Source: a virus
Strand: one strand, 5' to 3'
Length of the DNA stretch: 41,779 nt
IMG/VR virus record: IMGVR_UViG_3300021356_000045
Span: 1-41,779 of that record
A model generated the notes under the pieces. It made no database searches. It saw only the letters and a program-made list of their open reading frames with translations, and had not been told where the DNA came from. The position numbers were made by a program, and so were the translations under genes. Positions 6,132 to 33,912 of this stretch are shown piece after piece (within the stretch, counting starts at the first letter, position 1; each line of letters begins with the position of its first letter).

Positions 6132-6208
6132 GTTTTTTCCTTTCTTTGGTATGTCTAACTAACCACAAAATTATATGTTTAATTATGTTGTTGTAATTAA
6201 ATTTTATA

Positions 6209-6487
6209 CTATTTGTTTTTCTTAGCCCAAAAAAAGTCCGGAACTTCTCCAAAATAGTTATTTATTTTTTCTCTATTTTTTTCTGTATTTACTATCAAAT
6301 AACCCTCTGAAAGTTTTGAAAGTATTAATTCAATATTGCATGGAAAAGGCTTTTCGCCTTCTTTTTTAAGATAAATGCATTGATTTTTCAGTGTTTTGCT
6401 TCTCTTTTTATTAACTTCATCAATAAAATCTTTGCTTTTTTCTTCCCAAAATTTTTTCATTGATTCAGAAATTGCCTTGTTTTTCAT
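6209..6487 (-). CDS. Small NUMOD3-like protein, function unknown
   Basis: A 92-residue basic protein lying between two fibre genes. The first 40 residues, with ISESMKKFWEEKS followed by a second basic helix (RSKTLKN), resemble the NUMOD3-type DNA-binding helices attached to phage homing endonucleases. The remainder (PFPCNIELILSKLSEGYLIV, then FGEVPDFFWAKK) is not recognised. No nuclease motif such as GIY-YIG or HNH is present, so this may be a remnant of a homing element or an unrelated regulator. The Shine-Dalgarno is weak. Confidence 0.5.
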   Translation of the reverse strand: MKNKAISESMKKFWEEKSKDFIDEVNKKRSKTLKNQCIYLKKEGEKPFPCNIELILSKLSEGYLIVNTEKNREKINNYFGEVPDFFWAKKNK

Positions 6488-6568
6488 CTGCCAGACTTTC
6501 TTTTAATATATGTATATTTTTATATAAAATCTTTTCATGTTTAACAGGCGTAATTTTAAATATCAATA

Positions 6569-9500
6569 TTAAGGAGTATTTTCGTTTGCTCCTGTAAACT
6601 TAGTATCACCAGCATCATCACCGCTACCTACAACTAAGAAATGTCTATCAGAAGCGCCTGTAGCAGTTGCACCGTAGAAGATAAGATCAGAACCACCTTG
6701 TGCATGTAATTGTCCTAAGTCAAAAGCAAAAGGTCCAAAGTGTGATCTAACAAGAGGTGACGAATCAAATACGACATCGTATATGTCACTTCCGTTCTCT
6801 TGAATAGGATCATTATTTCCATCAAGTCTTTGTGAAGTTAAGAATACACCACCAAATCGACCAAGCTGACTATCTACATAAGCTTTAATCGCTTTAGCTG
6901 ATGCTAAAGTTGTATCAGTTTCAGCTACTGCAGAAAGATCTGTATCTAAAACTCCTGCTTTAAGATTGTCAACTTCAAGATTTGAAACTGTATTGTTGTC
7001 TGCGTCAATTGATTTATTTGTTAAAGTATCAGTTGTTGCACGCCCAACAAGAGTATCAGTTGCATCTGGAAGCGTAAGTACTCGATCATCAGTAGGGTCT
7101 GTAACAGATAGCGTTGTTTCAAAGTCGTTTGAAGTTGCGCCTTCAAATACGATAGATGAGTCACTTAATGACAAACCTGAAACAATTGGAGATGTCAGCG
7201 TTTTATTAGTCAAGGTTTGTTCAGCAGTCAATTGTACAATATCAGATCCTACATTAACTGTGATTGTTTGTCCCGCGTGAGTTACTCCAACTTTATTAGC
7301 TGTACCTTGAATAGTCAAAGTTTCGCTGTCTAAATCTACTGTTCCTCCTGCCCCAGTATCAGTTGCAAAGTCTAAATCTTGAGCAGTTATTTGCGCATCT
7401 ACATATGTCTTAACAGCTTTTGCTGTTGTTAACGTATCATGATTTTGTGAAACTGCTGTTAGGTCTGTGTCAACAGATGTTATTGCTGTTGAATTATTTA
7501 TTGTTAAACTTGTATTTGCAGTTAAAGCTGTAAATGTACCAGCAGCTGCTGAAGTGCCACCAATTACAGAATTATTTACTGTACCTCCGCTTATTGTCAA
7601 GTCGTTTGCAACGTAAGCGTCAACTATAACTTCTCCTTGCCATGTACCAGAAGTAATTGTACCAACTGTTGCAAGCGAGCTTAAAGATGTTAAAGATGTA
7701 TTATCACTTAAGAAAGTAACCAAGTTTGCAAGTGTTGCTTTTTTATTACCTGCGTTATTACCTTCACCTGCAGCAACATCACTAACTAAAAGTAAATCGG
7801 AAGCTGTTAATGGTTCGTTTGTTGCAGTTCCACCACCAAAATTTAAAGCATTTAGTGAAACTTTATTATCTGTGTTAATTACATTAAGCTTGTCATTTGA
7901 AATACTACCAGCAAGCATTGCATTTGTTATACCTAGAGCTCTTACGTTTAAAGAATTATTAGCAAACTCTATCGAAGAGCCATCAACTTCTGCAGTTTGA
8001 ATATAATCTTGCGCAAGTTTATCATCTGCTATAGATCCTTCTAGCATTGCGTTTGTAACAGCTAGGTTTCCAATTGTAGCATCTCCACCTGCTGCAATAG
8101 TTATATCTCCTGAAACATTTCCAAATATTGAATCTTCAAGATTACTTAAAGTCATAGATTTAATTGTAGTAACATTTGTATCGTATATAAATAACTTATC
8201 ATCTTGAGCAAAGTTTGTTAAAACAGCGCTTTCTGATGTCCAGTCTAGTTTATCTAAGTCTATTGCTGCATTTGCTGCGATTGATGCATTAACAACTGCG
8301 TCATCTGCAAGTTGATCAGCTCCAACAGCATCAGCTACCAGCATAGAGCTCTCTACAGAACCGTCTGCGATTGTCAAATCTACGTTATTAACTGCAGCAG
8401 AACCGTCAATATCAAAACTTCCTGTTACGTCACCATTGGCAAATGTAACTGTTACAGCATCTGACCAGCTTGCTGCTGTTGTTGCAGTAGTCGCGCTTGT
8501 TGCATTACCATCTAAAGCGCCTGAAAATGTTGTAGAAGTTAGTTCACCTGTACTTGGGTTATATGTTAGCCCTACATCAGTTTCAATTCCTTGCTCGCCA
8601 GTTGCGCCGTCAACAAAAGTCAAATAAACAGTCTCGTTTGTATTGTTGTTTGCAGACGCTGTAATATTTGTTGCAGTAGTTGCAGTATCAGCATTACCAG
8701 TTAAATCACCTCTAATTTTACCTGCATTACTGTAAATAACAGCTTTTTCGTTTACTACTGTATCTGCTGCTGAACCGTCTAATAGATTTAATTCTGCAGG
8801 AGTTGATGTTACTGCAGTATTCTTTTCATTATCTGTTGCATCTGACCTTAAAACTAAAATGCTACCATTTTGATCAGGTAAAGTAATTGATCGATCATCT
8901 GTAGGATCGATAACTGAAAGAACTGTTTCAAATTCATCTGGAGTTGCACCTTCAAAAGTAAATGAATTTTGAACATTAATAGTTGTTGAGTCAACAGTTG
9001 TTGTAGTTCCTTTAACAGTTAAATTACCTCTAATCACGACGCTTGTGTCATTATCAGCATCACCAATATTTAATGTATCAGTACCATCAAACGATGCTAA
9101 TCTAGTTGAAAGGTTTGCTTTTGAAACATCTTCATCAGTATTAGTAGTAAATGTTAAATTGTCTTGCATATAAGTTTGCAAATCGGAAGCTGTTATCTTC
9201 TTTAAATCTCCAACATTATCACTTGTATCGCTTACAAGTAACTGGTCACCTGAAGCCAAAGATTCTCCTTGCGCAAAATCATTTTGGCCAGTTATAATAG
9301 ACTTGTTTATTGATAAGTCTATTGCACCATCACCAGCATCGTCATATGCTGCTGTTATACCCGAGTGTGAACCATTAGTCACTAATTGACCAGCACTTAC
9401 ATCTTGAACGGCTTCAGTAAAGTCTGTAATTTGAGTTGAGACTATTGAAACAGAAGATGTTGACGTAGCAGTTACTTGACCTTGTTTATTAAGTGTTAAA

Positions 9501-11203
9501 ACAGGTATAACTGATCCTGAGCCTATAGAAGCTGTATCTCCTACTCCATCTCTTGGATCACCGTTTTCATCTAAGAATAAACCTCCATTTTGACTAGCTA
9601 TACCAGTATTATCTAAACTAATTGTTTGAACATGGTCTCCTGCCGCTGTATTTACAGATCCAGATAAACCAGTTCCAGCAGTTATATTAACTCTTGAAAT
9701 ATCTCCTGAGCCTTGTCCAAAACCTTGTTCATCGATGTAATGTTTAATTGCTGCAGCTGTTAATAATGATGTATCGTTGTCACCAAAACCTGTAATTCCA
9801 CCTCCTGCTGAAATCTCTGCTTCGGTTTGTATTGCATTACCAGCTAATTGATTAAATGCAATTGATCCTGATAGTGAAGCAGCGGGATAGTTTATTGCAT
9901 CTTGTAGATCAAATGCTGGAGTAGCATCTGTACCACCTAAAGAAACGTTTACTCCGCCTAAAGATATTTGTTCTGAAGAAAGAGATATTGCTACATTATT
10001 ATCAGAAACTGTTGTAACTACAGATCCAGACCCTGCAAATGTTAAAGTTTCGCCATTATTAAAAACATCTGTATTCGCTTGATTTTGATTGTCTGATATT
10101 GTAAATGATGTTGAAATTGCTGCAGTTGAAGTAGCAGTTACCTGGCCTTGTTTGTTAAGTGTTAACACTGGAACTAGAGTTGCAGAACCTATTGATGCTG
10201 TATCGCCTACTCCATCTCTTGGATTACCGTCACCATCTAAGAACAAACCTCCATTTTGACTAGCTATATCTGTATCGTCTAAGTCTATAGTTATAGTGTC
10301 GTTACTAACCGTAGTTGTAATACCAGTATCACCTGCAAATGTTAACGTTCCTCCATTTTCAAATGTATCGTTAGCACCTGCATCAGCAGACAGTGTAAAT
10401 GATGTTGAAATTGCTGCAGTTGATGTTGCTGTTACTTGACCTTGTTTATTTAGTGTTAAAACTGGAACTAGAGTTGCAGAGCCTATTGATGCTGTGTCGC
10501 CTATTCCGTCTCTTGGATTACCATCTCCATCTAAAAATAACCCGCCATTTTGACTAGCTATGCCTGTATCATCTAAGCTTAAAGTTAGAGTTTGATTTGC
10601 ACCTGTAGATGTTAAGCCTGTGCCACCTGCTATTGTCAGTACTTGGCTATCTAAATCAACAGCAAGAGCTCCACCTGCGTCTCCTTGAAAATCTAAATCT
10701 TGAGAAGTTAATTGTGAGTCAACATAATCTTTTACAGCAGCTGAAGTTGGTAGTGTTGTGTCATTGTCGTTATTAGATATACCTTCACCTTCTAACACAA
10801 TAGCTGTTGCATCAAAGCTTGCAACTGTTAAGTCAGATGGAGCAGCAACATCTCGTAATTCATCGTTGAGTTTTTGAATTGCTGCGACAAGTGAATCACC
10901 TGCAGCAATTATCGTATTATTAGGAAGTGCGTCTCCGTTAGGTAAAGTAAAGTCAGGTTTAGTTGAATCCGCATTAAATCCAAGTCGATCAGTTAGAAAT
11001 GTACCGTCAAGTGCAATTACTAGCTGATTATTTACAGTTGCTATGTTTTTTATACCAGCGTCATTTACTAATAAGCTGCTTCCATTAGAATTTTGTAAAC
11101 TAGTCGCTTTTATAGTGACTGCATTTACTTCTTCCCATCTTGTTCCTGATATACCAATTTTTCCTTGGCTATCTGCTCTTGGTACTAAATTTCTCGTAGT
11201 CAT
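6569..11203 (-). CDS. Long repetitive tail-fibre protein (1544 aa)
   Basis: A second large fibre protein, composed of Asp/Thr/Asn-rich beta repeats. It carries the marine phage fibre signature GTTTTVDSTTINV and three near-identical blocks containing IASQNGGLFLD followed by VPVLTLNKQGQVTATST. LTSQDLDF-type and AKAVKTYVDAQ-type segments recur. The N-terminus MTTRNLVPRADSQGKIG resembles the opening of the 1714-residue fibre (a DxxxxLGxxxxRW pattern), suggesting a common attachment domain. The C-terminal 100 residues (GRFGGVFLTSQRLDGNND onward) are non-repetitive and may form the tip. AGGA sits about 10 nt before the ATG, and a late-promoter-like box lies 42 nt upstream. Receptor and position in the virion are not known. 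Confidence 0.8.
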   Translation of the reverse strand: MTTRNLVPRADSQGKIGISGTRWEEVNAVTIKATSLQNSNGSSLLVNDAGIKNIATVNNQLVIALDGTFLTDRLGFNADSTKPDFTLPNGDALPNNTIIAAGDSLVAAIQKLNDELRDVAAPSDLTVASFDATAIVLEGEGISNNDNDTTLPTSAAVKDYVDSQLTSQDLDFQGDAGGALAVDLDSQVLTIAGGTGLTSTGANQTLTLSLDDTGIASQNGGLFLDGDGNPRDGIGDTASIGSATLVPVLTLNKQGQVTATSTAAISTSFTLSADAGANDTFENGGTLTFAGDTGITTTVSNDTITIDLDDTDIASQNGGLFLDGDGNPRDGVGDTASIGSATLVPVLTLNKQGQVTATSTAAISTSFTISDNQNQANTDVFNNGETLTFAGSGSVVTTVSDNNVAISLSSEQISLGGVNVSLGGTDATPAFDLQDAINYPAASLSGSIAFNQLAGNAIQTEAEISAGGGITGFGDNDTSLLTAAAIKHYIDEQGFGQGSGDISRVNITAGTGLSGSVNTAAGDHVQTISLDNTGIASQNGGLFLDENGDPRDGVGDTASIGSGSVIPVLTLNKQGQVTATSTSSVSIVSTQITDFTEAVQDVSAGQLVTNGSHSGITAAYDDAGDGAIDLSINKSIITGQNDFAQGESLASGDQLLVSDTSDNVGDLKKITASDLQTYMQDNLTFTTNTDEDVSKANLSTRLASFDGTDTLNIGDADNDTSVVIRGNLTVKGTTTTVDSTTINVQNSFTFEGATPDEFETVLSVIDPTDDRSITLPDQNGSILVLRSDATDNEKNTAVTSTPAELNLLDGSAADTVVNEKAVIYSNAGKIRGDLTGNADTATTATNITASANNNTNETVYLTFVDGATGEQGIETDVGLTYNPSTGELTSTTFSGALDGNATSATTATTAASWSDAVTVTFANGDVTGSFDIDGSAAVNNVDLTIADGSVESSMLVADAVGADQLADDAVVNASIAANAAIDLDKLDWTSESAVLTNFAQDDKLFIYDTNVTTIKSMTLSNLEDSIFGNVSGDITIAAGGDATIGNLAVTNAMLEGSIADDKLAQDYIQTAEVDGSSIEFANNSLNVRALGITNAMLAGSISNDKLNVINTDNKVSLNALNFGGGTATNEPLTASDLLLVSDVAAGEGNNAGNKKATLANLVTFLSDNTSLTSLSSLATVGTITSGTWQGEVIVDAYVANDLTISGGTVNNSVIGGTSAAAGTFTALTANTSLTINNSTAITSVDTDLTAVSQNHDTLTTAKAVKTYVDAQITAQDLDFATDTGAGGTVDLDSETLTIQGTANKVGVTHAGQTITVNVGSDIVQLTAEQTLTNKTLTSPIVSGLSLSDSSIVFEGATSNDFETTLSVTDPTDDRVLTLPDATDTLVGRATTDTLTNKSIDADNNTVSNLEVDNLKAGVLDTDLSAVAETDTTLASAKAIKAYVDSQLGRFGGVFLTSQRLDGNNDPIQENGSDIYDVVFDSSPLVRSHFGPFAFDLGQLHAQGGSDLIFYGATATGASDRHFLVVGSGDDAGDTKFTGANENTP

Positions 11204-11244
11204 ATGATTATAATCCTAACTTAATTATTTTATTTCTTATATAA

Positions 11245-11253
11245 CTATTTATT
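11245..11253 (-). promoter_or_regulatory. T4-type late promoter box upstream of the 1544-aa fibre
   Basis: The transcribed strand reads AATAAATAGTTATATAAG. This matches the T4 late promoter core TATAAATA at seven of eight bases and shares its downstream TTATATAA with the boxes at 37999 and 38590. Start codon spacing is 42 nt. Late promoters of this type need phage-encoded sigma and clamp proteins. Confidence 0.5.
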
Positions 11254-11298
11254 ACGTTATTAAATTACAAAAAATACCTTAAATAATATTTACATTGA

Positions 11299-13632
11299 TT
11301 ATTTAGGCCTAATACATTCTTCTCCTGAAGCTTCATCGGTATATATTTCAAAAAACTCATCTGTAATATCACTTGAATTTCTTGTAGAAGGTGTATAAGC
11401 ATTCATTGAACTCAATTCTTCAAGTATATCATGTAAAGTAATATCAGGATTTGCAAAATTCATTGAACCTGCGCTTAAGTTGATTGCAAACATTCCTGTG
11501 TCTAAAGTTCCATCAATAATACCATGAGGATAAAGATCTGCGTCACCGTTGTCATTTGTAGTTGAAGCTTCTGCCCATAATGAAGCAGTTGTTGCTTGAA
11601 AAACAGTGTCTGTATCATCAGCAGGTACCCATTTATAAACAGGATTGTTAACATCAGAATTATCAACCAGCGTCCATTTTAAAACTTGTCCTGCTGTTGG
11701 TGAATAATCTTCTCCAGCTGGATCTTCTCCTGAATGATCTGTTGTATCTACGTCTGATAGGCTGTTAATTGATGTAGAAAAACTTCCTTCACTTGTAGTA
11801 TTATCATCAAAAGTAGTAGTTACTACATTGTTAGTAATTGAAACGTCAGTAATAACAGGAGCATTATCTCCTGCAGGACCCTGAACACCTTGAGGACCCT
11901 GAATACCTTGCTCGCCCTGAGGTCCTTGTTCGCCCTGAGGACCCTGAATACCTTGCACACCTTGAATACCTTGAGGACCCTGTATTGATCCTCCGTCGAC
12001 CCAATCTTGACCTTCATAAATAAACAAAGAATCATCTACAGTTGATATTACAGCGTCTCCATTTTGTGGTGTAAAAGTTACATCATTAGTTAAAGTAACA
12101 TCACCGCTACCTGATGGGTCTTGTGATACTTGGCCTTTAAAAGTTATTCCAGTTCCAGCTTCACCCTGTTCACCTTGAGGACCTTGAATACCTTGAACAC
12201 CTTGAATACCTTGCTCGCCTTGAGGTCCTTGAATACCTTGCGGTCCCTGTTCACCTTGCGGTCCTGTTAAATCTATTGTTGTGAAACTAGTATTGTCTGA
12301 AAAATTTAAAGTAAAGGTACCGTCATTATTTTCAACTGTCGAAGATATTCCAACGCCAGCTTCTCCTGCAGGTCCTTGAGGACCTTGAGCACCATCAGCT
12401 CCTGCGGGTCCTTGAATACCTTGAATACCTTGTGGTCCCTGTTCACCTTGAGGACCTTGAGCACCATCAGCTCCTGCGGGTCCTTGGATACCTTGAGGAC
12501 CCTGTTCACCTTGTGGTCCTGTTAAATCTATTGTTGTGAAACTAGTATTATCTGAAAAATTTAAAGTAAAAGTTCCGTCATTGTTTTCAACTGTCGAAGA
12601 TATTCCAACACCAGCTTCTCCTTGAGGACCTTGAGCACCATCAGCTCCAGCAGGTCCTTGCTCACCTTGAGGTCCTTGAGCTCCATCAGCTCCAGCAGGT
12701 CCAGCAGGTCCTTGGATACCTTGCTCTCCTTGCTCTCCTTGCGGTCCTTGAGGACCTTGAGCACCGTCAGCTCCTGCAGGTCCTTGAGGTCCTTGCGCGC
12801 CTTGAGCACCAGTATCTCCTTTAATAGATCCTCCAGATATCCAAGTTGTTCCATTATAAGAGTATAAAACGTTTTCTAGATTATTGTCAGACTCGTCAGT
12901 GCTTACGATATAAGTCCAGCCTTTTTCAGGATTTGCAACGTTTAATAAAAGTGTTTTTGAAGCTATATCACCTTTAAATTCAAAGTCTGCACCGTCTGCT
13001 CCAGCTTCACCTCCGCCTCCGCCTCCTCCTTCTGTAAACCTTTCTGAAGCCATATTACCGATATAAATAAATGCTTCGACGTGACTTGGGTTTTCATTGG
13101 CATTATCAGGAGGAACTTCTTGAAAAAGTATACCGTTAAAATAATCTAAATACCAAGATCTATTATCTAAAAGAGGTATTCTTGTACCGTTACCTTTAGT
13201 ACCATCGCCACCATAATAAACTTTTGCTTCATAAGTGTCAGAAAAAGAAGGTGGAACTAATTGAAGTCTTCCAATAGAAGTATTTAAGTCTTGACTATCT
13301 AAAAAAGATAAAGTTCCAGACTTTGTATTTGATGAATTACTTTCATAATCTGCAGGTAAACTTAATTTAAAAGCATGATATTTACCTGAGACTAGTGATT
13401 CTGGTAGTGCTGTTGCAACGAGTCTAACATATTCAACTGTATCACCAGTAATGTCATACAAATTTGTGTTTGAAGGTGTTGTAGTAATACTATCACCAAA
13501 TATTGATGATGCGCTTAACGTTAAGCCAGTCGTTTTACTTTCATTAAAAGCTTCCAAAGCATTTGAAGTATGTGCTTTACCGACCAGCTTTTTAAGAGAT
13601 ATGTTTTCTTTTGAAGAAGATGATAATGCCAT
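11299..13632 (-). CDS. Collagen-like fibre protein (777 aa)
   Basis: A virion protein with a 200-250-residue N-terminal domain, a glycine run (about residues 203-210), and then Gly-X-Y collagen-like tracts from about residue 275 to 590. The tracts are dominated by GPQGEQG and GIQGPAG triplets and should form a trimeric triple helix. They are interrupted by two copies of a small folded insert ([19 protein letters not shown]) and by one [11 protein letters not shown]-type insert that also occurs in the 2337-residue neighbour. The C-terminal 190 residues are globular. The start uses a GGAG placed in the last codons of the upstream gene, and only 3 nt separate the two, so they are probably translationally coupled. 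A side or tail fibre is likely. Confidence 0.82.
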
Positions 13633-13635
13633 TTT

Positions 13636-16600
13636 TTAACTCCAATCTACTGTTATATTGCTTAAGTATCCTGTCCAATTTTCGTCTGCTTCAATTCTCA
13701 TTACGAAATATTCATTTGGTTGCAGGAATTTTTGTCCAAAAGTTATTGTATTTGTTGTAGAAGATCCTGCAGATATATTTGCGTTTAAGCTTCCATTTAG
13801 TGATCCATCGTCATCTGAATAACTGCCTGTCTCAAAGTCTTTAGCAATATTTAAATATCCTGTAGCTTGAGAATCCCCGGTAAGAGGTATTTTAACTGCT
13901 ATTTTTATATTTGAAGCTGATAGCGTTCCATTAGGATCTACCAAAGTACTTCCATTACCTTCTAAAGAAAGAGAAAAACCAGTTTTTGCGTTCTGTGTAT
14001 TGTTTTGAAATATTCTATAAAAATATTTTGTACCAGTTTCTCCAGAGTAATTAGGATTATCTGCGGGCGCATAAATTGATCCACCACTGTTTATATCTCT
14101 AAAATCTCCATCAGGATATATTAATTTGCTATCATAAATCATTAAACCATTAACTAAATCATTTTCTGAGTTCCAAGAAGCTCCAGACGCAGCAGCCTGA
14201 GAATTGTAATCAACATTATCTGGTAATCTTCTAGTCTCGTTTGAGAAGTCTTCTTCAACTAAACTTTGATTTGATGTTGAAACACTATATTGCAAGAATT
14301 TTTCTGATGTTATAACTTCATTTACTCCCGATGTAGTTTCACCATTTGCAGCTGTCAAAGGATGTTTTACTCTTGCATTGATTGTAATATCATTCATGTT
14401 ATCATAAGGCTGTTGCGATGATAAATCCGGTATTGACTTTGTATAGTTCACTTCAATAATTGAATTTATAATCAATACTTCTGATTCATCTCCAGCTGCT
14501 GTAATTTCTGGTAAAGATACTGAGCTTGAACTTGTTGGATTTTGTATTGTATGAGATCCATTATTTGAAATTTGATTATTGTATGTACCTGTTAAAAGAA
14601 TAGACTTTATTTTAGATCTATTATTTGGATCAAAAACTGTAACTGCATTACTTTCACTGCTATAAATGTTCTTATATACATTCTCAACGCTTATTTCATA
14701 AGGAACATTTGTAACCGACTTATAATATGTTATACCAGATAAGCTGTTTGTCTCTGTTGACGATATTTGTGTTGAGTCAATAGAATAAGTGGCTGCACCA
14801 TTGTTTGTAAAATCTGGTACATCTGTATTATTATCGTTAATCCACTCAATTAAGTTAGATTCGTGTGATGTATCACCAATTGTATGAATAACTTTAGCAA
14901 AGTTATACCCAAGTCTTTGGTCTAAAATATCAACATAAAACTTAGAAGTTCTAAATAGCTTATTATAGTCAGGTCTATTATTTGCATCTCTTCCAGGTTT
15001 TGGAGCTGTTAAGTTTTTAAATCCACTTCCATTATTATTTAACTGATCGCCTGACAAGTAAGGCAATGTTGCTAAATTAATTGAATGCTTTTCTACACCA
15101 TTTACGTACAAAGACAATGTACCAAGTTCAGCATTGTCTCCACCGAAAGCGTACTGGTCATAACTATTACCATTTGCCGCTGTTAAATTGTTAATAAATC
15201 CAGATATATCTTGATTATTGTTAAAAATTCCAGATTTATTACCACTTAAATCAAAAGTCGAATTAATATCTGATGTGTAATCATCAAATTCTGGTACTGG
15301 ATTAGTTGTTCCAAACGACAACTTTCCAGAAACACCTTGCTGTTCTGAATCAATATTGGTAACATTTGGTGACGAAGTAACATTCCCTAAAACGTTTGTA
15401 AAATTAGCTGTTATAGAATCTAAATAACCAGCCCAGTTTCCTGCAGCTTTAACTCTTGCCAAGACATATTCGCCATTTAAGACTTCGTCTCTTCCAAAAG
15501 TAGCAAATAAATTATTTAAATTACCACTTATTGATAAGTTTGTATTGATTTCGCTATCTCCACAAGTTGTTCTGGAGTCATTTAAATAATCTTCTAAACT
15601 AAAGTTAGAAGCTAAACTCATCCACTCAGTTTCAGCAAATCCATCTTTTGAGGGTAGTTTAATTTCAACATCAATTTGAGATGAAGTAGGCGTGTCAGTA
15701 TCTGTTATTGTTGAATTGCTTCCGTTAAAAGATAATAACATTTCACTAATAGTACTACCTGAATTATTTTTAAATTTACGTATATAATATCTATTTGAAT
15801 TATCAATGCCACTATAATCTGGATTGTTATATGAAGAGCTTAAAGAACTAAAGTCACCGCTGTTAGGTAAACTATTGTTTTTAGGAGAATACAATCTTGA
15901 GTTATAAACTGCTAATCCTTCATTATGATTTACGTCATTACCCACAATGCTTAATTCAGAGTCCCAAGCATATGTATTGTTTATATCATTTAAGTCTGTT
16001 TGTGTATAAGCATTTGTTAAATATTGTCTATAGTTTTCATCATTAAATGATTCAGACGTTATTGTACTGTCTGCTGCAACATTGTCTAAAAGTATTCCTT
16101 CAACTGTTTGATTAGTTGAAGCTGTTGTAACATTAGCCTTTATTGGGTGAGGCAAACTAAATCCTGTAGTTAAAGATTGATTTAAAAGTCTATTGTTTAT
16201 GGGTAAAAGATTTGACGTTTGAGACAGACTAATTTGTTTAGTATGATCTTCACCAGAACCTGTATTGATTTCAGGAACTGCAATATTGTTAAAGTTTGCT
16301 ATGGCGTCCGGGGATTCAACAAAAGTCATATTGTCATTTTTGTAAACATATTTATAGAAATTATCAATATTTGCTGAGTATGTTGCAGTACCACTTGTAT
16401 GATATTGAATACCGGAAAGATATTTGCTTCCGGCCATTGCAAGTGTTAAAGACTTATTTGTAACAGAAATAGCTTCATTGTTGCTATCATTAACCCACTC
16501 AGCATATCCTGTAGTTTTTGTATTTTGCCCTACAACATGCTTTACTTGAGCAATATTCCAACCGTTTCTTTGACTTGATGAATGAACTTTCCATTCTCCT

Positions 16601-19600
16601 TGTCTATGTTTAAAAGTTGGAAATTCTGAACTTGAAGAAAACTTACCGCTAATTGCTGCTGTTAAATTAATAAATCCGCTACCATCTACATTAACATAAT
16701 CACCAGCACCGTTAGCAGGATCTGTCAAATCTAATTCGTGAATTTTTTCACCATTTAACCATAGCTGCAAAGTACCTTGGTCACCTTCACTAAAGCTATT
16801 ATCAGCAAAGTTTACAACATTATTAGTATATGTGTCATTAACTGCATTTTCATTTAAAGTTCCTGTTATTGAAGTATTTCCAGTATATACACCTAATCTA
16901 TAATTTCCATTTTCTGATTCAATTGTAAATATTTCATTAACATCTGTAGCCTCAAAGCCCGTAGTATTTTCTACTGAAAAATACGGGTTTCCATCTAAAG
17001 ATTGATCGCTAGATGCACCAAAAGATAATTTAATATTTTGCAACAAACTGTTTGCAGTATCTACGTCAAATTGCTCTAAGTCTGGTGCAGGTGCAGGAGC
17101 TAATGCTTTTAAGACTTCGTTAAATCTATCAATTGCAGTTCCTATTCTAGTAGTTGAAGTAAAGTCAACAAACAAACCGTCTGTATAGTCTGCATCTTCT
17201 GCATTTCCAATAATTCCTACTAATGTAGCCTCGTTATTTCCTGAATTTGTTACTGTTGCTAATTGCTGAACATCTAAAGTAGTAGTTTCTGCAACTGAAG
17301 TTGTGTTATCTGTGACACTTAAGCTTCCACCGCCACCACCTCCGTTGCCTCCATCATCAGCTACTACAAATTTAGCACCTCCTGGCGCATCTGAATCCCA
17401 TTTTAAAATTTTACCGTCAGCAATGTTTGTTAAGTCGACATCACTTAAATCACCGATAGAAGCGCTAAATGTTCCTTCATCATTAGTGTTATCACTAAAA
17501 GTTGTTGTTACAACTGTTCCTGAAATTGAAACGTCTGTAATTGACGGCGCATCAGCGCCTGCAGGTCCTTGAATACCCTGAATACCTTGCTCACCTTGCG
17601 GGCCTTGAGCTCCAGCTTCTCCAGCAGGACCTTGAATACCTTGAGGACCTTGAGAACCTTGAGGGCCTTGTAAGCCTTGCTCACCCTGGGGTCCTTCTGG
17701 TCCTTGAGGACCTTGAGCACCTGCAGGTCCAGCTTCTCCTTGTAAGCCTTGAGCACCCTGTGGTCCTTGAGCACCCTGTGGTCCTTGGATTGATCCACCA
17801 CTTACAAAAGAAGTTCCATCGTGTATATGTAAAGAGTCGTCTGATTGAACAATATACGCATCGCCTTGACTTGCATTATCAGGCAAGTCATCAACTGTAG
17901 GAACATTACCTTGAAAAGTTATTCCTGTACCAGCTGAACCTTGAATACCTTGTGGACCTTCTGGACCTTGCGGGCCCTGGATACCTTGCGGACCTTGTGG
18001 GCCTTGCTCGCCTTGAATACCTACTTCACCTTGAGGACCCTGTTCACCTTGCTCGCCTTGAATACCTTGTGGACCCTGAATACCTTGCTCGCCTTGTGGG
18101 CCTTGAGCGCCATCAGCACCAGCAGGACCTTGAAGGCCTTGAATACCTTGCTCGCCTTGTGGGCCTTGAGCACCGTCATCTCCTTTTGGTCCAGCAGGTC
18201 CTTGTTCACCCTGGGCACCTGCAGGTCCCGCAGGTCCCTGTTCGCCTTGAGGGCCTTGGATACCTTGTTCACCTTGTGCACCGTCTGCTCCTGCAGGTCC
18301 TTGAAGGCCTTGAGGTCCCTGTTCGCCTTGAGGACCTTGAACGCCAGCGTCGCCTTGTGGTCCAGCTGGCCCTTGAGGACCTTGAAGGCCTTGTTCACCT
18401 TGTGGTCCTTGTGGTCCTATTTCTCCTTGTGGTCCTTGTTCACCTTGAGCTCCAGCAGGTCCTTGCTCGCCCTGGGCACCTGCAGGTCCTATTTCGCCTT
18501 GCGGACCTTGTTCACCTTGCGGACCTTGCGCGCCTACAGGTCCTTGTTCACCTTGAGGACCTTGAGCTCCATCAGCTCCATCCGCACCAGCTGGCCCTTG
18601 CTCTCCTTGCGGTCCTTGTGGACCAACTTCACCTTGAGGTCCTTGTGGACCAGCTTCAGGATCAACATAAACAAACTTTTCAGGATCATTTTCAGTTGCT
18701 GCTACGTATTGTAATATTTTTCCTTCTTCTTTGTTTGTATGATCAATACCTGTAAAGTTTTCGTCAAATATGTTTGAACCTTTAGCAGCTATCGCGTCAT
18801 CTAGATTTTCTAACGCTGTTTTAATAACTGTTACGCCATTTAAATAGTTTGTTCCTGCAAAAGCAGCAAGAACACCATCTTCGTCAGTGCCTACAGAAGA
18901 TTTTAAATTAATTAGCTGTGAAATGTCTCCATCGCCTGTTAAATTTGAAATAACATCTGAATTCGCCTTAATTCTACCATCTAATATAAGACTTGCATTA
19001 TGCAAAGAAGTTGATGCATTTAAATAATTTGAAGTATTAGGTTGAATATATTCGCCACTATTATTTAAACCTGCTCCTGTTTGAGTTGCATCAATTTCAT
19101 TTTGTAACAACGTAATATTGTTTTCTGCTGTGTCTAAATCATTCTGTGTTGATTTAATTTGAGTATCTAAAAGATTAATACTGTGAAAAACTGAAGTTGC
19201 TGTTGAAATATAGTTTGACTGTTCGTTTGCAACGTAATTTCCGTTTACATCTAATCCAATTTGATCTTCGTGTTTGTCTAATAAAGTGAATATAGAAGTA
19301 ATATCTGCATCATTAGAATTTATTTGATTTTGTAAATTCGTATCAGCTGCAGCTCTAGCTGTTGCTTCAGCTGTAATATTAGTTTGAAGAGTATTATCAG
19401 CATTAGTTCTTGCAGTTGCTTCAGCATCAATGTTAGCCTGAAGTGTCGTATCAGCTGTCTGTAGATTTGTAATGTCTGTATCATTAGAACTAATTTGATT
19501 TTGTAAATTAGTATCAGCTGTAATTCTTGCAGTCTCTTCATCATCAATATTGTCTTGGAGAGTAGAATCTGCTATTTGTAGATTTGAAATGTCTACGTCG

Positions 19601-20649
19601 TTAGAATTAATCTGATTTTGTAAATTTGTATCTGCATTAGCTCTTGTAGTTGCTTCAGCATCAATGTTAGCTTGTAAAGTAGTATCAGCTGTTTGCAGAT
19701 TTGCAATGTCTGTATCATTAGAACTAATTTGATTTTGTAAATTCGTATCTGCTGATGCTCTTGCAGTTGCTTCAGCATCAATATTAGTTTGAAGTGTATT
19801 GTCTGCATTAGTTCTTGCTGTTATTTCAGCATCAATGTTAGCTTGCAAAGTAGTATCAGCATTAGTTCTAGCTGTAATTTCATTAGATAAATTATTAGAG
19901 TTTGTCGTTATATTGTCTGTGTTTGTACTAATTAAGTCTGCATTTGATTTTATTTGAGCATCAAGTTTATCGTCTGCATCCTTTAGAGACGTTGCTTCTG
20001 TTATATAATTTGAACTACCATTTGCAATATAACTTCCATTGTTTTCTAAACCTGCACCTGTTTCAATAGCATCGACTTCTGTTTGAAGTGAAGTTATTGA
20101 TGTTTCGGTTGCTGATACTCGGGTTGTTAATACTGATAAATCAGCTTGACTAGCTTTTAATGCAATATTTGTTTGGTTGTTTGATATGTTTGTTGTATTT
20201 GTACTAATTAAATCATATAAAATACCATCTGCTTCTCCAGAAGTTGTAGGAGCAGGATCAGGAAATTGCTCAGGTGCAACATAAGATATACTATCAAAGT
20301 TTACTAAACTACCATCAGACTTTCTAAGAACGCTTACCCAAAGTGTACCTTGTATGTTTACATCTCCAGCAAATGTTGTTGCATAATTACCAGCTGAAGT
20401 TGGAAGTAAATTTGCTTGACTACCTAGCGCATTAGGTACGCCGTAAACATAAAGAAATGGATTAGATGAAAATCTTGAACTATCTGCGTCTGTTAAAATA
20501 GTATTTAATGCTGCTTTAAATACTCCATCACCTAGATATTCTTGAGAAGGTGCTATTACTAGCTTAGGCTCGTAATTAGCATTAGCAGCATTAGTATTAC
20601 TTATTATTGCACTTGTCTTTATTTGATTATGTATAAAGTCTGCTGACAT
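13636..20649 (-). CDS. Giant collagen-like fibre protein (2337 aa)
   Basis: The largest gene of the window. Its N-terminal part (1-250) is followed by tandem repeats of [14 protein letters not shown] and [15 protein letters not shown] units at about 250-440, probably a trimeric coiled or triple-beta stalk. Collagen-like Gly-X-Y tracts span about 667-905 and 951-1033. After a glycine run (about 1100) come two diverged copies of a roughly 600-residue module to the C-terminus. Paired landmarks include [14 protein letters not shown] versus [14 protein letters not shown], and [11 protein letters not shown] versus [12 protein letters not shown] clear AAGGGAG precedes the ATG. This is probably a long fibre or adhesin acting with the coupled 777-residue protein; the receptor is unknown. 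Confidence 0.82.
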
Positions 20650-27299: not shown

Positions 27300-28925
27300 T
27301 TAATACTCATGATAGTTATCAAAAAAATCTTCTGGAAAATAATCTTTAGCTCTACTTTTAATTATGTTCCAATCGCTATCTAGTATATATGTAACTGCTA
27401 CATCTTTTTCGTTTCTAATGCTTCTGCCTAAGCTTTGTATTATTGTCCTAGAAGTTTGAGTATCGTACCACCATTTCCATTTGTTCATTTTCTTTTTTGT
27501 TACTTTGTCACCTAAATACGGATAAGGTATTTTACATAAAATTTGAAACTCTGAAAGTTTGCCTTTCAAATCAACACCTTCAGCCATTGAAGGCGACAAT
27601 AAAACAGTATTTCCTTTAGAGTTAATATGTTTTTCTAAAGAAGATTCTCTTGTTTCTCCTGTTGCTAAAATTAGTCTTCTGCTTTTTACATTTTGCTTGA
27701 TATATTTTGCTATTTTGTTACTATGTGTATGTATTATTCCTTTTTGATTTTTATGATTTTCTAATATTGCATTAATCATCTGTATCATGTTTGGCAGTGT
27801 TTTATCAATATTCTTAAATGACATACTGCCAGCAGGAGAAAATATAACAGGCTTATTTTTGGAATCAAATGGACTACCTTTTTTGACTATCGAAGTCTTT
27901 TCAAATGGTAAACCTAAAGATATACAAAATCCTTCGTGAGAAACTATTGTTGCAGACATAAAAATAATGTAGTCTGCATATTGTAAAATATATTCTTTAG
28001 CATAAGATGATATATCAATAGGTTTAAAAATAAATTTTCTATATTTTTCATTAGTGTTTTCAATATCAAAAACCCAGTTATCTTTATCGTATAGCTTTAT
28101 AAAATCAGTTATTTTTGTCATATGACTTTGTAGCATTTCAACATGCTTAGTAATTTTTTTAAACTCTTCAAGTTTTTGACTATTTATACCTAGTTTTCCA
28201 AGCTGTTGCTGTATATTTTCTAATTTGCTTGAAACTTTTTGCAGATATACATTTTTAATCCACTGAAAAACTTTAAACTGTGTGTTAAGATCTGAAGGAA
28301 TTTTTAATTTTAAAATCTTTTCAGAGAAGTATTCAGAAACTGATATCTCTATGAATCTTGTTAACTCTGACTCTAAATTGTGAGCTTCATCAATTACTAA
28401 TACTTTTTTATTTGGTAGTTTTTTACTATAATTTTTTTCTGTAAGAAAATAGCTAAAATTTGTTATTCCTAAATTATTTTCAATAAACTGCTTTTTCTTT
28501 TCTTTATATTTGCATTTATAACCACAACAATCGTATTTTTTAGGAAGACTTCCTGATTTTAAAGCAGTTTGTATTTCTTTACAAGATGCTTTTTTATCTA
28601 CGTCACATATGTAATTTGAAGATGAATATAAATTATTTAAGCCTTTTGATTTAAAATCTTTATTATACTGCTCTTGTAATATTTTTTGTGTAGTCAAAAA
28701 ATAAGTACCTTCTTCATTGTCAGAAGAAAACTCTGACATGTTTGTTAAATATTTTCCAATTGTAAATCCGATTGCAGACTTTCCTACACCTGTTCCACAC
28801 TCAATTACTGCAAATTTCTTCCCTTCTTTAAAGTCATTAAGTACACTATTTATAACGTCTTCTTGGATTTCTCTAGAATCTTCGTAAGGAAAATATTTAA
28901 TCCAGTCTTCTTTTGTAATTTTCAA
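27300..28925 (-). CDS. DinG/XPD-type Fe-S DNA helicase
   Basis: 541 residues, superfamily 2. Walker A is CGTGVGKS (43-50). A cysteine-bearing insertion (YICDVDKKASC near 108 and DCCGYKC near 135) is the Fe-S domain typical of XPD and DinG. DEAH lies near residue 180 in VLVIDEAHNLE. Motifs in the second half are LLSPSMAEGVDLKG, KIPYPYLGD and IIQSLGRSIRN. The enzyme should unwind forked DNA or R-loops 5' to 3' at the cost of ATP. The start must be TTG at 28925, because no Met occurs before Walker A; AAGG lies 8 nt upstream. It is followed by the coupled Nudix gene. Confidence 0.88.
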   Translation of the reverse strand: MKITKEDWIKYFPYEDSREIQEDVINSVLNDFKEGKKFAVIECGTGVGKSAIGFTIGKYLTNMSEFSSDNEEGTYFLTTQKILQEQYNKDFKSKGLNNLYSSSNYICDVDKKASCKEIQTALKSGSLPKKYDCCGYKCKYKEKKKQFIENNLGITNFSYFLTEKNYSKKLPNKKVLVIDEAHNLESELTRFIEISVSEYFSEKILKLKIPSDLNTQFKVFQWIKNVYLQKVSSKLENIQQQLGKLGINSQKLEEFKKITKHVEMLQSHMTKITDFIKLYDKDNWVFDIENTNEKYRKFIFKPIDISSYAKEYILQYADYIIFMSATIVSHEGFCISLGLPFEKTSIVKKGSPFDSKNKPVIFSPAGSMSFKNIDKTLPNMIQMINAILENHKNQKGIIHTHSNKIAKYIKQNVKSRRLILATGETRESSLEKHINSKGNTVLLSPSMAEGVDLKGKLSEFQILCKIPYPYLGDKVTKKKMNKWKWWYDTQTSRTIIQSLGRSIRNEKDVAVTYILDSDWNIIKSRAKDYFPEDFFDNYHEY

Positions 28926-29804: not shown

Positions 29805-30059
29805 ATGAAAAATAAAATTCCAAAACTGTTTTTTGAAAAAAACGAAGAAATAGAATTTATTCCTGAGTCTATAGATTGGGATGATCCTACTGTTTGCGTT
29901 TTATGTCGTCAAATAGATTGTATATGCACTATTCAAAAATGTTTATGCAACATATCAGCAAATAAATGCACCTGGCCTAATAATAATTGCCCTTGTTCTA
30001 ATTGCTTAAAAGTTTTATCTGAATGTAAATGCACTGTAAAAATAAAGAAAGAAGTGTAA
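29805..30059 (+). CDS. Cysteine-rich small protein (12 Cys)
   Basis: 84 residues with 12 cysteines in the last 55, arranged in pairs: CVLC, CIC, CLC, CPC, CKC. The first 27 residues are acidic and cysteine-free. The arrangement suggests a multi-zinc or other metal-binding knuckle protein rather than a disulfide-rich secreted one, since no signal peptide is present. It is the first gene of the rightward run and ends one base before the cyclase start, so they are probably cotranscribed and coupled. Function unknown. Confidence 0.7.
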   Translation: MKNKIPKLFFEKNEEIEFIPESIDWDDPTVCVLCRQIDCICTIQKCLCNISANKCTWPNNNCPCSNCLKVLSECKCTVKIKKEV

Positions 30060-30060
30060 A

Positions 30061-30939
30061 ATGTCTGTTTTGTTAGATGAAAATACTGTTGAAGCTCACA
30101 TTGCAATAGTACTAACAGATATTATCGGCAGTACAAAATTTGTTCAAAAAAACGGTGCAAGAATAGCAGCAAAATGGTTTGGAGCTCATGACAAAGCAGT
30201 TATGAACTATATTGCAAGACATAACGGTCAATTAATAGATGCATCTGACGGGCATTTAATGATGTTCGGAACAGTTTCAGACGCAATTGCATTTGCATTT
30301 GAATATAAGAAATATCTTCGACAAAAAAAATTTCCTTTTAGAAGCCGTGTAGGAATACACTGGGATAAAATGCTAATTGTAAAATCAGAAGCGCACATGG
30401 TTCGTGCAGGTGGTAAAAGAATAAATTTAGAAGGAATTGGAAAAAACATAGCAGCAAGAACAATGTCAATTTGTGGTGCTGAACAAATTTTATTATCTTA
30501 TTCAGCTTATATGCAGTTTAAAAAATTTGGTCACAGAAATAGATATATTCCTAAAAAAGCTCTATCAGCTCTAGTAGGTTTATATCAATTTAAAGGAGTT
30601 TCAGAACCAGAAGCAATATATGCAATTGGGCTAATACAAGAACAATTACAACCACCTCCAGATGGTGAAAAAGCTAAAAGAATAGGTGGCGCTAAAAAAA
30701 TAAAAACTAGATTGAGAGATAAAAAGATTAAAGAATTGTTTTTCTGGTTTGCTTATAGATTAATATTTGTTGCATTTTGTATGTTTTTATGGGTTTTGAT
30801 ACAAATGTCAAACAGGTTTCATTCTAATAACATCATTTATAACGCAACAGGTTTAGATTTAAACTATTATCTCGGATGGATTATACCTTTTTTCGAAAAT
30901 ATATATGAATTATTAATAAGAATAATAAAGGCTTTTTAA
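30061..30939 (+). CDS. Class III nucleotidyl cyclase with C-terminal membrane helices
   Basis: 292 residues. The N-terminal catalytic domain shows class III order: VLTDIIGSTKF with metal ligand D20, SDGHLMMF with second metal ligand D63, RVGIHWD (96-102), and KNIAARTMS with transition-state residues N129 and R133, then AEQILLSY. By manual alignment, the base-selecting Lys and Asp/Thr of adenylate cyclases are replaced by Ile59 and Asn122, so the nucleotide made (cAMP, cGMP or a cyclic pyrimidine) cannot be assigned. A basic linker leads to a membrane helix (FWFAYRLIFVAFCMFLWVLI) and a second hydrophobic segment near the C-terminus. It is followed 1 nt later by a membrane/coiled-coil protein. 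A phage-encoded cyclase is unusual. Confidence 0.8.
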   Translation: MSVLLDENTVEAHIAIVLTDIIGSTKFVQKNGARIAAKWFGAHDKAVMNYIARHNGQLIDASDGHLMMFGTVSDAIAFAFEYKKYLRQKKFPFRSRVGIHWDKMLIVKSEAHMVRAGGKRINLEGIGKNIAARTMSICGAEQILLSYSAYMQFKKFGHRNRYIPKKALSALVGLYQFKGVSEPEAIYAIGLIQEQLQPPPDGEKAKRIGGAKKIKTRLRDKKIKELFFWFAYRLIFVAFCMFLWVLIQMSNRFHSNNIIYNATGLDLNYYLGWIIPFFENIYELLIRIIKAF

Positions 30940-30940
30940 C

Positions 30941-31426
30941 ATGACAGACAAAAAAAAAGAAGAACAAAAATCACAAAAACAATTCACACAAACAGAAAAA
31001 GCAAAACGTGGTTGGTGGTTTAGCGTTATTTTTATGATTCTTGTTGTAGGATTAATAATGTTTCTTGCATTTATTCCTTTACAACAAGACAATCGTGATA
31101 TTATCGTAGGTATGATTGGTATGATTACAGGTGCTATATCGTCAATGCTTTCAATTGCAGCAGGTCGAGATCCATCTGAAGTCGAAGAACTAAAAGATAA
31201 ACTATCAGCTGCGAATGCTGATAGAGCTGCTTTGATTGGTCGTCTTAGAGACTCTCAAATACAAATGCAATTATTAAGAGAACAAATATTCGAATTGCAA
31301 AGTGCTGTAATCGACAAACTTTCTTTCTTTCAAGGACAAAGCCCGATTAAAACAAAAGACAGAAATCAAGTTGTTCTTCATGAAGAAGTTGAAGAATGGT
31401 TACCTAAAGTTGATAGAAAAAATTAA
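30941..31426 (+). CDS. Membrane protein with two helices and a coiled coil
   Basis: 161 residues. A basic hydrophilic N-terminus (about 25 residues) precedes WWFSVIFMILVVGLIMFLAF, a short loop, and a second helix IIVGMIGMITGAISSMLSIA. A coiled coil of roughly 40 residues follows (VEELKDKLSAANADRAAL, RDSQIQMQLLREQIFELQ). No domain is recognised. It is coupled to the cyclase gene (1-nt gap, with its AAAGG inside the cyclase 3' end), suggesting a shared complex in the membrane. It could alternatively be a holin-like or tail-associated protein. Its stop overlaps that of the convergent GIY-YIG-like gene. Confidence 0.65.
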   Translation: MTDKKKEEQKSQKQFTQTEKAKRGWWFSVIFMILVVGLIMFLAFIPLQQDNRDIIVGMIGMITGAISSMLSIAAGRDPSEVEELKDKLSAANADRAALIGRLRDSQIQMQLLREQIFELQSAVIDKLSFFQGQSPIKTKDRNQVVLHEEVEEWLPKVDRKN

Positions 31427-31716
31427 TTACTCCACCAATCATCAAAAGATCCCCATTTTATTCTTTCGTAAATAGAATCTGGTATGCTGCCTGTACAATC
31501 ATAACTAAACCATTCTCCTTCTAACCTGTATCTTTCTAATCTTTCATGTAATATTTTTTCTTTCCAGCCTTCACCTTTAAACTCAGCTATTAATTTTAGT
31601 TTATTTGGATTACCAGTTTGAAGCTGTTTTAATCTTTTTGATGGATTTTTAGATCTACCTATTTTTATCATTCCAGTCACATCTGACTGTATTATATATA
31701 AATCGTCATTGTTCAT
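31423..31716 (-). CDS. GIY-YIG superfamily protein (T5orf172/MUG113-like)
   Basis: 97 residues from the ATG at 31716, with GAGA 8 nt upstream; an ATG at 31728 and longer versions are possible. The fold signature is LYIIQSDVTGMIKIGRSKNP followed by RLKQLQTGNP, then EKILHERLERYRLEGEWF. This fits the T5orf172/MUG113 branch of GIY-YIG nucleases: tyrosine motif, KIG-x-(S/T) with Arg, and a catalytic Glu region. Such proteins are found alone or fused to DNA-binding domains in phages. Nuclease activity is possible but unproven. It is the only leftward gene in this rightward block, consistent with a mobile insertion. Confidence 0.7.
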   Translation of the reverse strand: MNNDDLYIIQSDVTGMIKIGRSKNPSKRLKQLQTGNPNKLKLIAEFKGEGWKEKILHERLERYRLEGEWFSYDCTGSIPDSIYERIKWGSFDDWWSN

Positions 31717-31761
31717 TTTATTTCTCATAGTTATACTTAAATATAAATCAAAAGGTATTGT

Positions 31762-33144
31762 ATGATTATTATAGCAGAAAATAAAAAAAATCATTATATG
31801 ATTAAAAAATTTTTAGTTGATTTTAACAAATATAAAAATATAAACGAAAACAGAAGTGAAAAATTTCATCCAGTATTTAAAGACAATTTACCTGGAGAAG
31901 ATAATCCAGCTGGAGAATTTCCAATAGTCACAGACAAAGAAATATTCACAGATAAAGACAATAGACCAGCCACTGAAGCAGAAATAAATTTTGTTGCAAA
32001 CAAAAATCCAAAATATAAAAGTTATTTACAAAAATTTCTTAATACCTCAAAATTTGTTTTACCTTTTATGGCTGCAGTTTTACTTTATAACTCAACTCAC
32101 TTAAACTCTCCAGAACAAAAAGTTGCGATCGAGATGATCAAACAAGAAAATCAAGCCGAAAATATTTCTCCACATCAAATAGAAAATGAGCCAAATATAG
32201 ATAATAATGAAATTACTACAAGCAGCACAAAGTCTTCTCAATCAAATGAAATTCAAACTAAGGAAAAGAAAAAAGCGAGCAAAAATAAAACAAGTCGAGA
32301 AGAAATTAAAAAACAAGTTTCTGAAAGAATAAAAGAATTTGAAAGCTACAGACCATACCCATATCAAGATGCTGAAGGCATTTCAATAGGTTACGGTACA
32401 CAATTCATTAATAAGGGCAAAGTAAACGATTTACAAGATGACTGGAAAGATATAATTTATAAAAAAATAGGTTTGTCTGAAAAAGAAATTAAAGAAAAAG
32501 AAAAAAACGAAAAATATAAAGAATCTGTAGACGAAGAACTCGATCAATACATAACAGAATTAGATGAAAGAATAAAAGAACTAAAAAACAAAAAAGATAA
32601 AGTTGTCAACCCTTATAAAGATAAAAAACCTAAAAACTGGAAACCTAGATATCACTTTAAAAAAGAATTTCGAAACAAACTTCAAAAATTAATTAATAAT
32701 TTAGAAAAAAGAAAAGAAGTTGTCAAAAAAAGAGGAGTACTTAAAAAAGATGAAGCAGAAGAATGTTTTAAAATTGATCTTGAAAATAGATTTGATATTT
32801 TAGAATCAAATTTTAAAAATCCTTATATAATGGATGCTGAAATTATTAAAGTTTTATTAGACATGTATTACAATATTGGTCCTGCTTTAGAGTCAAAATT
32901 TCCTGACTTTATAAAACATATTGAGTCATATCATAAAGAAATGTCTAAAAAATCCCCTAATCTAAAAAAGATTAAAAATATTTTAAAAGAAGCTAATAAA
33001 GAAATTTCTCCTAAAGGTGCTCCTGTATATCACAAACAAAATAAAGATAGAGCTGAGTCTAATCAAGAGTTAATTCAGATTGCTATTAATAAATACAAAA
33101 CAAACGAATCACTCAAGTCAGTATATAAACATCTATTTGTTTAA
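31762..33144 (+). CDS. Membrane-anchored GH24-like lysozyme with charged insertion
   Basis: 460 residues. The N-terminal region has a hydrophobic segment FVLPFMAAVLLY near residue 100, a possible anchor, and then a Ser/Lys/Glu-rich linker. The lysozyme motif begins near 190: ERIKEFESYRPYPYQDAEG then ISIGYGT. E194 and D203 match the T4 lysozyme Glu-Asp pair in spacing, but the third residue is Ser208 and its loop is one residue short. A Lys/Glu-rich insert of about 100 residues (about 235-335) separates this lobe from the second lobe (KKDEAEECFKIDLENRF, LLDMYYNIGPA). The role is probably peptidoglycan cleavage at lysis or during entry. AAAGG lies 6 nt before the ATG. Confidence 0.72.
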   Translation: MIIIAENKKNHYMIKKFLVDFNKYKNINENRSEKFHPVFKDNLPGEDNPAGEFPIVTDKEIFTDKDNRPATEAEINFVANKNPKYKSYLQKFLNTSKFVLPFMAAVLLYNSTHLNSPEQKVAIEMIKQENQAENISPHQIENEPNIDNNEITTSSTKSSQSNEIQTKEKKKASKNKTSREEIKKQVSERIKEFESYRPYPYQDAEGISIGYGTQFINKGKVNDLQDDWKDIIYKKIGLSEKEIKEKEKNEKYKESVDEELDQYITELDERIKELKNKKDKVVNPYKDKKPKNWKPRYHFKKEFRNKLQKLINNLEKRKEVVKKRGVLKKDEAEECFKIDLENRFDILESNFKNPYIMDAEIIKVLLDMYYNIGPALESKFPDFIKHIESYHKEMSKKSPNLKKIKNILKEANKEISPKGAPVYHKQNKDRAESNQELIQIAINKYKTNESLKSVYKHLFV

Positions 33145-33156
33145 AGAAAGAATGTT

Positions 33157-33912
33157 ATGAAAAAAATATTATTAATTATTGCTTTGCTTTTACCAAGCTT
33201 TGCCTTTAGTCAAGTAAACATTGAATCAATTAGAAATGGCAAAGAATCAAAAAATCCTATTTGGGGTGAAACTAAAGGAGGATTAGAACTACAAAGAGGA
33301 AACGTTGAAATAAACGCAATTGATCTCGACTTTTTAATCCACTTTAAAAAAAATAATCATCACGTTTTTCTTCAATCTAAAACATCACAAGGAAAACAAG
33401 GAGATACAAAATTTAAAAACTCTTCTTTTTTACATCTAAGATGGACTTGGATGTTTACAAAAATTATTGGAGTTGAACTATTTTCTCAATTACAACATGA
33501 CGAGTTTAAAGCTTTAGAAATAAGACAATTAAACGGAATTGGTATAAGATCAGAATTGTTTCATTCAAAAACTTTTTCTTTAAGTTTAGGCTCAGGTGCA
33601 ATGACTGATTTTGAAAGGCTAACTTCTAAAGAAGAAAACAACGTTATAAGAAGCACGTCTTATATTACAGCAATAAAAACTTTTAACAAAAACAAAAAGA
33701 ATTTAATTCTGTTTACACTTTATTATCAACCTTTGTTTACTAATCCAGAAGATTATAGAATTAATCTAGAAGCTAACGTCCGCACAAGTTTAATATCTTT
33801 CTGGAACATTTCTTTAGATAACTCAATAAATTATTTATATGATACTAATCCACCTGATAACATTAAAACAGACGATTTAATTATTAAAACAAATGTTGTT
33901 TATGAATGGTAA
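33157..33912 (+). CDS. DUF481-like outer-membrane beta-barrel protein
   Basis: 251 residues with a clear signal peptide (MKKILLIIALLLPSFAFS, cleavage before Gln19). Alternating amphipathic strands follow, and the last residue is aromatic (VVYEW), as required for insertion by the BAM machinery. Landmarks SSFLHLRWTWMFTKIIGVEL, FSQLQHDEFKALEIRQLNG and IGIRSEL match the DUF481 family of salt-induced outer-membrane proteins of Gram-negative bacteria. It lies 12 nt after the lysozyme-like gene. Functions to consider are altering the infected cell surface, blocking superinfection, or aiding lysis. The family match is from memory, by eye. Confidence 0.7.
   Translation: MKKILLIIALLLPSFAFSQVNIESIRNGKESKNPIWGETKGGLELQRGNVEINAIDLDFLIHFKKNNHHVFLQSKTSQGKQGDTKFKNSSFLHLRWTWMFTKIIGVELFSQLQHDEFKALEIRQLNGIGIRSELFHSKTFSLSLGSGAMTDFERLTSKEENNVIRSTSYITAIKTFNKNKKNLILFTLYYQPLFTNPEDYRINLEANVRTSLISFWNISLDNSINYLYDTNPPDNIKTDDLIIKTNVVYEW

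Follow-up and report, generated by a model that had tools for sequence, protein, structure and literature searches.

A gene in the virus record IMGVR_UViG_3300021356_000045 encodes a nucleotidyl cyclase, C1, whose conserved residues and gene linkage suggest that it is very probably a competent enzyme and that it forms one unit with C2, the small membrane protein encoded directly after it. The window, by which we mean this entire 41.8-kb record, also holds genes for a phage tail fibre, an exonuclease, a PhoH-like protein and a helicase. Because the stretch has relatives on contigs as long as 211 and 240 kb, the window is most likely a fragment of a jumbo-phage genome. The genes around C1 are as follows.

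27300-28925, minus strand: DNA helicase (phrog_2488, E 3e-106), a marker of this jumbo-phage lineage
29475-29753, minus strand: C0, a protein of 92 aa with two TM segments, an accessory member of the neighbourhood present in 27 loci
29805-30059, plus strand: C8, a Cys-rich protein of 84 aa with homologues upstream of C1 in 15 loci
30061-30939, plus strand: C1, with a class III nucleotidyl cyclase domain (about residues 9-198) and a C-terminal hydrophobic helix (residues 223-251)
30941-31426, plus strand: C2, the partner membrane protein, with TM helices at about residues 29-47 and 54-72 and a coiled coil at residues 78-132
31762-33144, plus strand: a neighbouring gene with a weak phage-lysozyme match (PF00959, E 5e-4, below the cut-off)

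Several other genes in the window deserve mention. A MUG113/T5orf172 (GIY-YIG-like) protein is encoded at 31423-31794, directly after C2, and its identity of 80-87% in many jumbo relatives exceeds the conservation of most neighbours. A DUF481 protein (33157-33912, E 1.5e-16), which is unexpected in a phage, is retained in several jumbo relatives. Four very long minus-strand genes, encoding 1714, 1544, 777 and 2337 aa, occupy positions 987-20649. The 777-aa product matches tail-fibre families, and those of 1714 and 1544 aa have little or no PHROG match.

The first-pass annotation had placed a cyclase reading frame where C1 now stands, and this placement was confirmed. The frame runs from ATG to TAA and encodes 292 aa. 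A first scan of viral sequences recovered 18 relatives with 60-79% identity, and the widest scan found 283 cyclase loci, with phage C1 proteins ranging from 257 to 343 aa. C1 is under strongly purifying selection, with pairwise dN/dS values of about 0.05-0.15 where these could be estimated (three C1 pairs are saturated at synonymous sites). Given these relatives and dN/dS values, C1 is a real gene rather than a chance reading frame. Neither Pfam nor PHROGs supplies a name for the window protein, and its N-terminal domain is matched by NCBIfam TIGR04510 (E 3e-32). The cut-off of PF00211 is passed by a relative (L055); C1 of the window has no match to this family.

Searching the PDB by sequence returned the mycobacterial proteins Ma1120 and Rv1900c. 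The AlphaFold2 model of C1 (pLDDT 87, pTM 0.75) matches the Rv1900c structure (1ybt_B of 1ybt) with a Z score of 23.0 and a deviation of 1.7 Å over 171 residues (Foldseek/VIA-align), and it matches Ma1120 with a Z score of 22.6 (VIA-align). PycC is not among the structural matches listed for C1. The residues that had been reported to be in place, namely D20, D63, N129 and R133, are conserved across the 121 distinct phage proteins: D20 in 119 of 119 and D63 in 120 of 120 aligned, R133 in all 121, and N129 as Asn in 118. The three relatives with Ala at the N129 position (L125, L127 and L188) nonetheless retain C2, and they offer a natural test of the need for catalysis. With the exception of these three, the proposal of an intact catalytic site survives comparison with homologues. 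By modelled fold and by its metal and transition-state residues, C1 is a class III nucleotidyl cyclase, as originally proposed, with predicted activity.

It had also been suggested that the cyclase is anchored in the membrane, and this is probable. The AlphaFold2 model includes a C-terminal helix at residues 223-251, and 67 of 80 distinct C1 relatives have a hydropathy window above 1.5 in their C-terminal portion, the window protein being borderline at 1.51. C1 is therefore best described from the model as probably membrane-tethered.

The likely product of C1 is a more difficult matter. The annotation had read Ile and Asn at the two positions that select the base. The larger point, that the pocket is non-standard, stands, as does the Asn (N122), but the Ile was misplaced. 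In canonical relatives, the hairpin that carries the second metal Asp reads K-x-x-G-D (K-x-T-G-D), and in the phage proteins and their TIGR04510-type relatives it reads D-x-[ST]-D, which is one residue shorter. The window protein has D60-x-S-D63. Because of this one-residue deletion, the position of the adenine-selecting Lys is taken by D60 rather than by I59. Profile alignments likewise set D60 opposite this Lys, and D60 is invariant in 120 phage proteins. The second base position (N122 in the window) is most often Glu (98 proteins); 22 proteins, that of the window among them, have Asn there, and one has Ser. Thus the Lys and Asp/Thr pair of canonical adenylyl cyclases is absent from C1, which has D60 and N122 instead. 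EaPycC and AnPycC carry an aromatic residue two positions before the first metal Asp (PMC11224242), where the phage family has Leu in 117 of 119 proteins and Phe in 2. As aligned, the putative C1 pocket matches neither the adenylyl pair nor the PycC residues reported in that study. Because this base pocket is non-standard, the product of C1 is not readable from the sequence.

The adjacent membrane protein that the annotation had pointed to is C2, whose gene begins one base past the cyclase stop. This linkage is near-obligate. Of the 147 distinct cyclases, 137 are followed directly by C2 on the same strand. Another 8 have it elsewhere in their fragment and 1 has it upstream, which makes 146 with C2 in the fragment, and the last cyclase is cut at a contig edge. 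When adjacent pairs were measured (n = 70), 53 were found to overlap and 14 to lie within 20 bases of each other. Conversely, 77 of 80 loci fetched by C2 contain C1, two more belong to contigs that carry C1 at a greater distance, and one is truncated by the contig edge. The expectation that homologues would keep their membrane partner was therefore borne out. The scans found 311 viral C2 loci in all, and no C1-C2 fusion proteins were found. C1 and C2 distances are also correlated (Mantel r 0.64, with none of 2000 permutations as high), a value to which shared phage descent contributes. In seven loci (L001, L002, L004, L007, L016, L017 and L021), C1 and C2 are separated by one to several additional genes, and the junction in these loci looks like an insertion site.

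C2 proteins are mostly 147-179 aa in length and have a variable N-terminus, two TM helices joined by a loop of about 8 residues, a coiled coil that reaches roughly to residue 132 and, finally, a short tail. AlphaFold2 places helices at residues 3-44, 49-73 and 78-132 (pLDDT 77), with low global confidence (pTM 0.36). Two TM segments are recognized by hydropathy in 107 of 109 C2 proteins, a topology that is unspecific when taken alone. Conservation is highest in TM2 and in the first half of the coil (mean majority frequencies of 0.88 and 0.89). Values of dN/dS are about 0.04-0.12 between pairs, with one pair at 0.25. The mean distance among C2 proteins is 0.34, against 0.46 for C1, which makes C2 the better conserved of the two. 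The C2 fold has no match in the PDB. With two TM helices and then a cytoplasmic helix, C2 has the layout of SLATT 2-TM effectors, and SLATT_fungal (PF18142) gives weak matches in 16 of 20 C2 proteins (best 5.7e-5, below the cut-off), a list that does not include C2 of the window. However, the matches of C2 to unrelated TM families are of similar weakness, and we have not adopted a SLATT identity for this protein. A bacterial source of C2 was likewise set aside after none of 398 sampled Pseudomonadota genomes, the one phylum sampled, was found to carry it in a search for which no positive control existed.

The genes for C8, C1 and C2 form a tight plus-strand run with C1 in the middle, in which a single base separates each pair. 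Judging from this one-base gap, C8 is likely co-transcribed with C1 and C2. C8 has no family match in Pfam or PHROGs, and zinc binding by this protein is possible. Clade D PycC depends on a zinc ribbon for its activity (PMC11224242), and it is pure speculation that C8 might act as a zinc-binding subunit separate from the cyclase. C0 is found close to the C1-C2 pair in L009-L012, L018, L025, L026 and L103, where the surroundings differ. It is holin-like in size and topology, has no family match, and gave no tblastn match among GenBank isolate phages.

The pair occurs in unrelated contexts. In jumbo phages its neighbour is the helicase, and in small phages it is located between the terminase gene and the gene for a portal with distant relatives in Gordonia, Mycobacterium and Pseudomonas phages. 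Among helicase relatives above 60% identity, most of those with fragments that reach the place have the pair. It is absent from a helicase group at 45-49% identity, including contigs of 255 and 267 kb, and its absence from many more distant relatives of the jumbo lineage indicates that the pair is accessory. L299, of the same lineage, has a divergent C2 (E 4e-44; 3635-4246, minus strand) and no C1 on its 20.8-kb contig. On inspection only, the neighbours of this C2 include small membrane proteins and a lipoprotein that resembles a cysteine-peptidase lysin. Among GenBank isolate phages, tblastn gave no match for C1 or C2. In the open-access literature covered, we found nothing on a C1-type phage cyclase or on the C1-C2 pair, the nearest being a report on pelagiphage curli clusters (PMC9599517).

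The closest cellular relatives by profile are proteins of the TIGR04510 type ('putative peptide modification system cyclase'), which C1 relatives match with E values as low as 1e-48. The curated cut-off (400 bits over 814 positions) is not reached, since two proteins score 112 and 157 bits and align to the N-terminal quarter only. Maximum-likelihood analysis grouped 22 of 23 phage representatives in a single clade (98/99) beside the TIGR04510-type bacterial domains. The canonical sequences lie on long branches, and L188 is placed outside the main phage clade. The bacterial proteins considered here are from Rubrivivax/Rhizobacter MAGs (L034-L041) and from loci L198-L205. They share with phage C1 the shortened D-x-[ST]-D hairpin, a K..E..G..K segment and a similar PP..KA tail. 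However, they are multidomain proteins of 843-1361 aa in which Pro or Ala replaces the catalytic Asn, whereas phage C1 is short, keeps the Asn, carries a predicted membrane helix in its C-terminal portion and is paired with C2. Rv1900c and Ma1120 have the fold and metal site in common with C1, but they lack C2, have a longer hairpin and Asn or Lys at the base position, and their solved domain has no TM helix. The CHASE2 adenylate cyclase of pelagiphages (HTVC008M gp019; PMC9599517) is also a phage-encoded class III cyclase. That protein is 611 aa long and has a CHASE2 sensor, the canonical K-x-x-G-D and curli genes alongside, none of which applies to C1, and no sequence similarity to C1 is detectable. 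C1 has no CHASE2 domain. A link to curli clusters was rejected, given that no CsgG was found in 28 C1 records and that the HTVC008M cyclase is distinct from C1.

A class III cyclase gene beside a membrane-protein gene recalls Pycsar (PycC with PycTM or PycTIR), and the first-pass annotation had drawn this parallel, which is not supported in that form. The CNBD family PF00027 was detected in 10 of 14 controls and is absent from C2 and from 26 viral records, although these may be fragments. Because the records contain no CNBD receptor and the pocket is different, C1-C2 is not Pycsar as defined, and it is phage-borne rather than bacterial. One might still imagine a Pycsar-like exclusion device in which a competitor triggers C1, the product activates C2, and C2 depolarises the membrane. 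We regard this as unlikely. Its gene order, with a cyclase gene adjoining that of a 2-TM protein, is that of nucleotide-signal defence pairs, and the weak SLATT_fungal matches point in the same direction. PycC is also the best PADLOC match of C1, but its E value of 3.8e-5 is about the level of general class III similarity, and the PycC aromatic pocket residue is absent. Moreover, C2 lacks a ligand-binding domain, and its resemblance to SLATT proteins is no better than that to unrelated TM families. Integrase genes are absent from the 26 records, and the pair-bearing phages are probably lytic, which is a likely reading and no proof because the records may be fragments. Abortive infection benefits lytic phages less, and exclusion of this kind would bring them a smaller gain.

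If the phage has no receptor of its own, then a host receptor would be needed, and perhaps the C1 cyclic nucleotide acts on CRP-type receptors to reprogramme the host cell, with C2 as an anchor or regulator. Pelagiphages do carry another cyclase that is read as cAMP-producing (PMC9599517). However, this proposal leaves the greater conservation of C2 relative to C1 unexplained, and the C1 base pocket is unlike that of adenylyl cyclases, such that we find host takeover unlikely as well. More improbable again is that C1 is non-catalytic and serves as a pseudo-enzyme or as a nucleotide sponge against host cyclic-nucleotide defences. The changed base-selecting residues, the loss of N129 in three relatives, and the Pro or Ala at this position in TIGR04510-type bacterial relatives are all compatible with such a role. 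Against it, the phage family shows no variation at either metal Asp or at the Arg, N129 is almost always kept, and a sponge has no need of a full catalytic site.

Our preferred reading, which we offer tentatively, is that C1 and C2 might form one membrane complex that couples cyclic-nucleotide synthesis to a late inner-membrane event, such as the timing of lysis or a response to superinfection. The linkage, the gene overlap, the correlated divergence and the conserved coil suggest that the two proteins act together at the membrane. C1 would be a catalytically competent cyclase tethered to the inner membrane, and C2 would be a two-TM hairpin with a cytoplasmic coiled coil that is complexed with C1. 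C2 could then couple cyclase activity to a membrane event, whether by regulating C1 or by itself acting on the membrane. Because C2 is too small to hold a globular nucleotide-binding domain, coupling by contact with C1 seems more reasonable than a classical receptor function.

The complex would most likely be used late in infection, when it might set the timing of lysis or respond to a superinfecting phage. This timing is suggested by the position of the pair among structural genes in small phages and by peptidoglycan hydrolases near it elsewhere, although the latter evidence is weak. Matches to such hydrolases lie 1.4-9.3 kb from C1 in several contexts, but this proximity is insignificant contig by contig (0.10-0.32 under uniform placement, with contigs that are not independent). 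Amidase_2 is far from C1 in the three largest records, and the small terminase-portal phages have no lysis match.

In phage biology, cyclic nucleotides are familiar chiefly as bacterial alarm signals, and a phage has to destroy them. In the present case, viral fragments in the hundreds keep a cyclase with an intact catalytic set, nearly always beside C2. The recurrence of this two-gene unit in hundreds of uncultivated phage fragments suggests that many phages may run an undescribed signalling system of their own. It is conceivable, if somewhat doubtful, that this is a widespread second-messenger system owned by phages, in which a membrane cyclase and C2 control the host inner membrane without a known cyclic-nucleotide receptor. 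If C1 works, then these phages make their own signal, and its product is possibly outside the usual four. What C1 makes, and how C2 reads or controls it, could be addressed with two genes in a laboratory strain.
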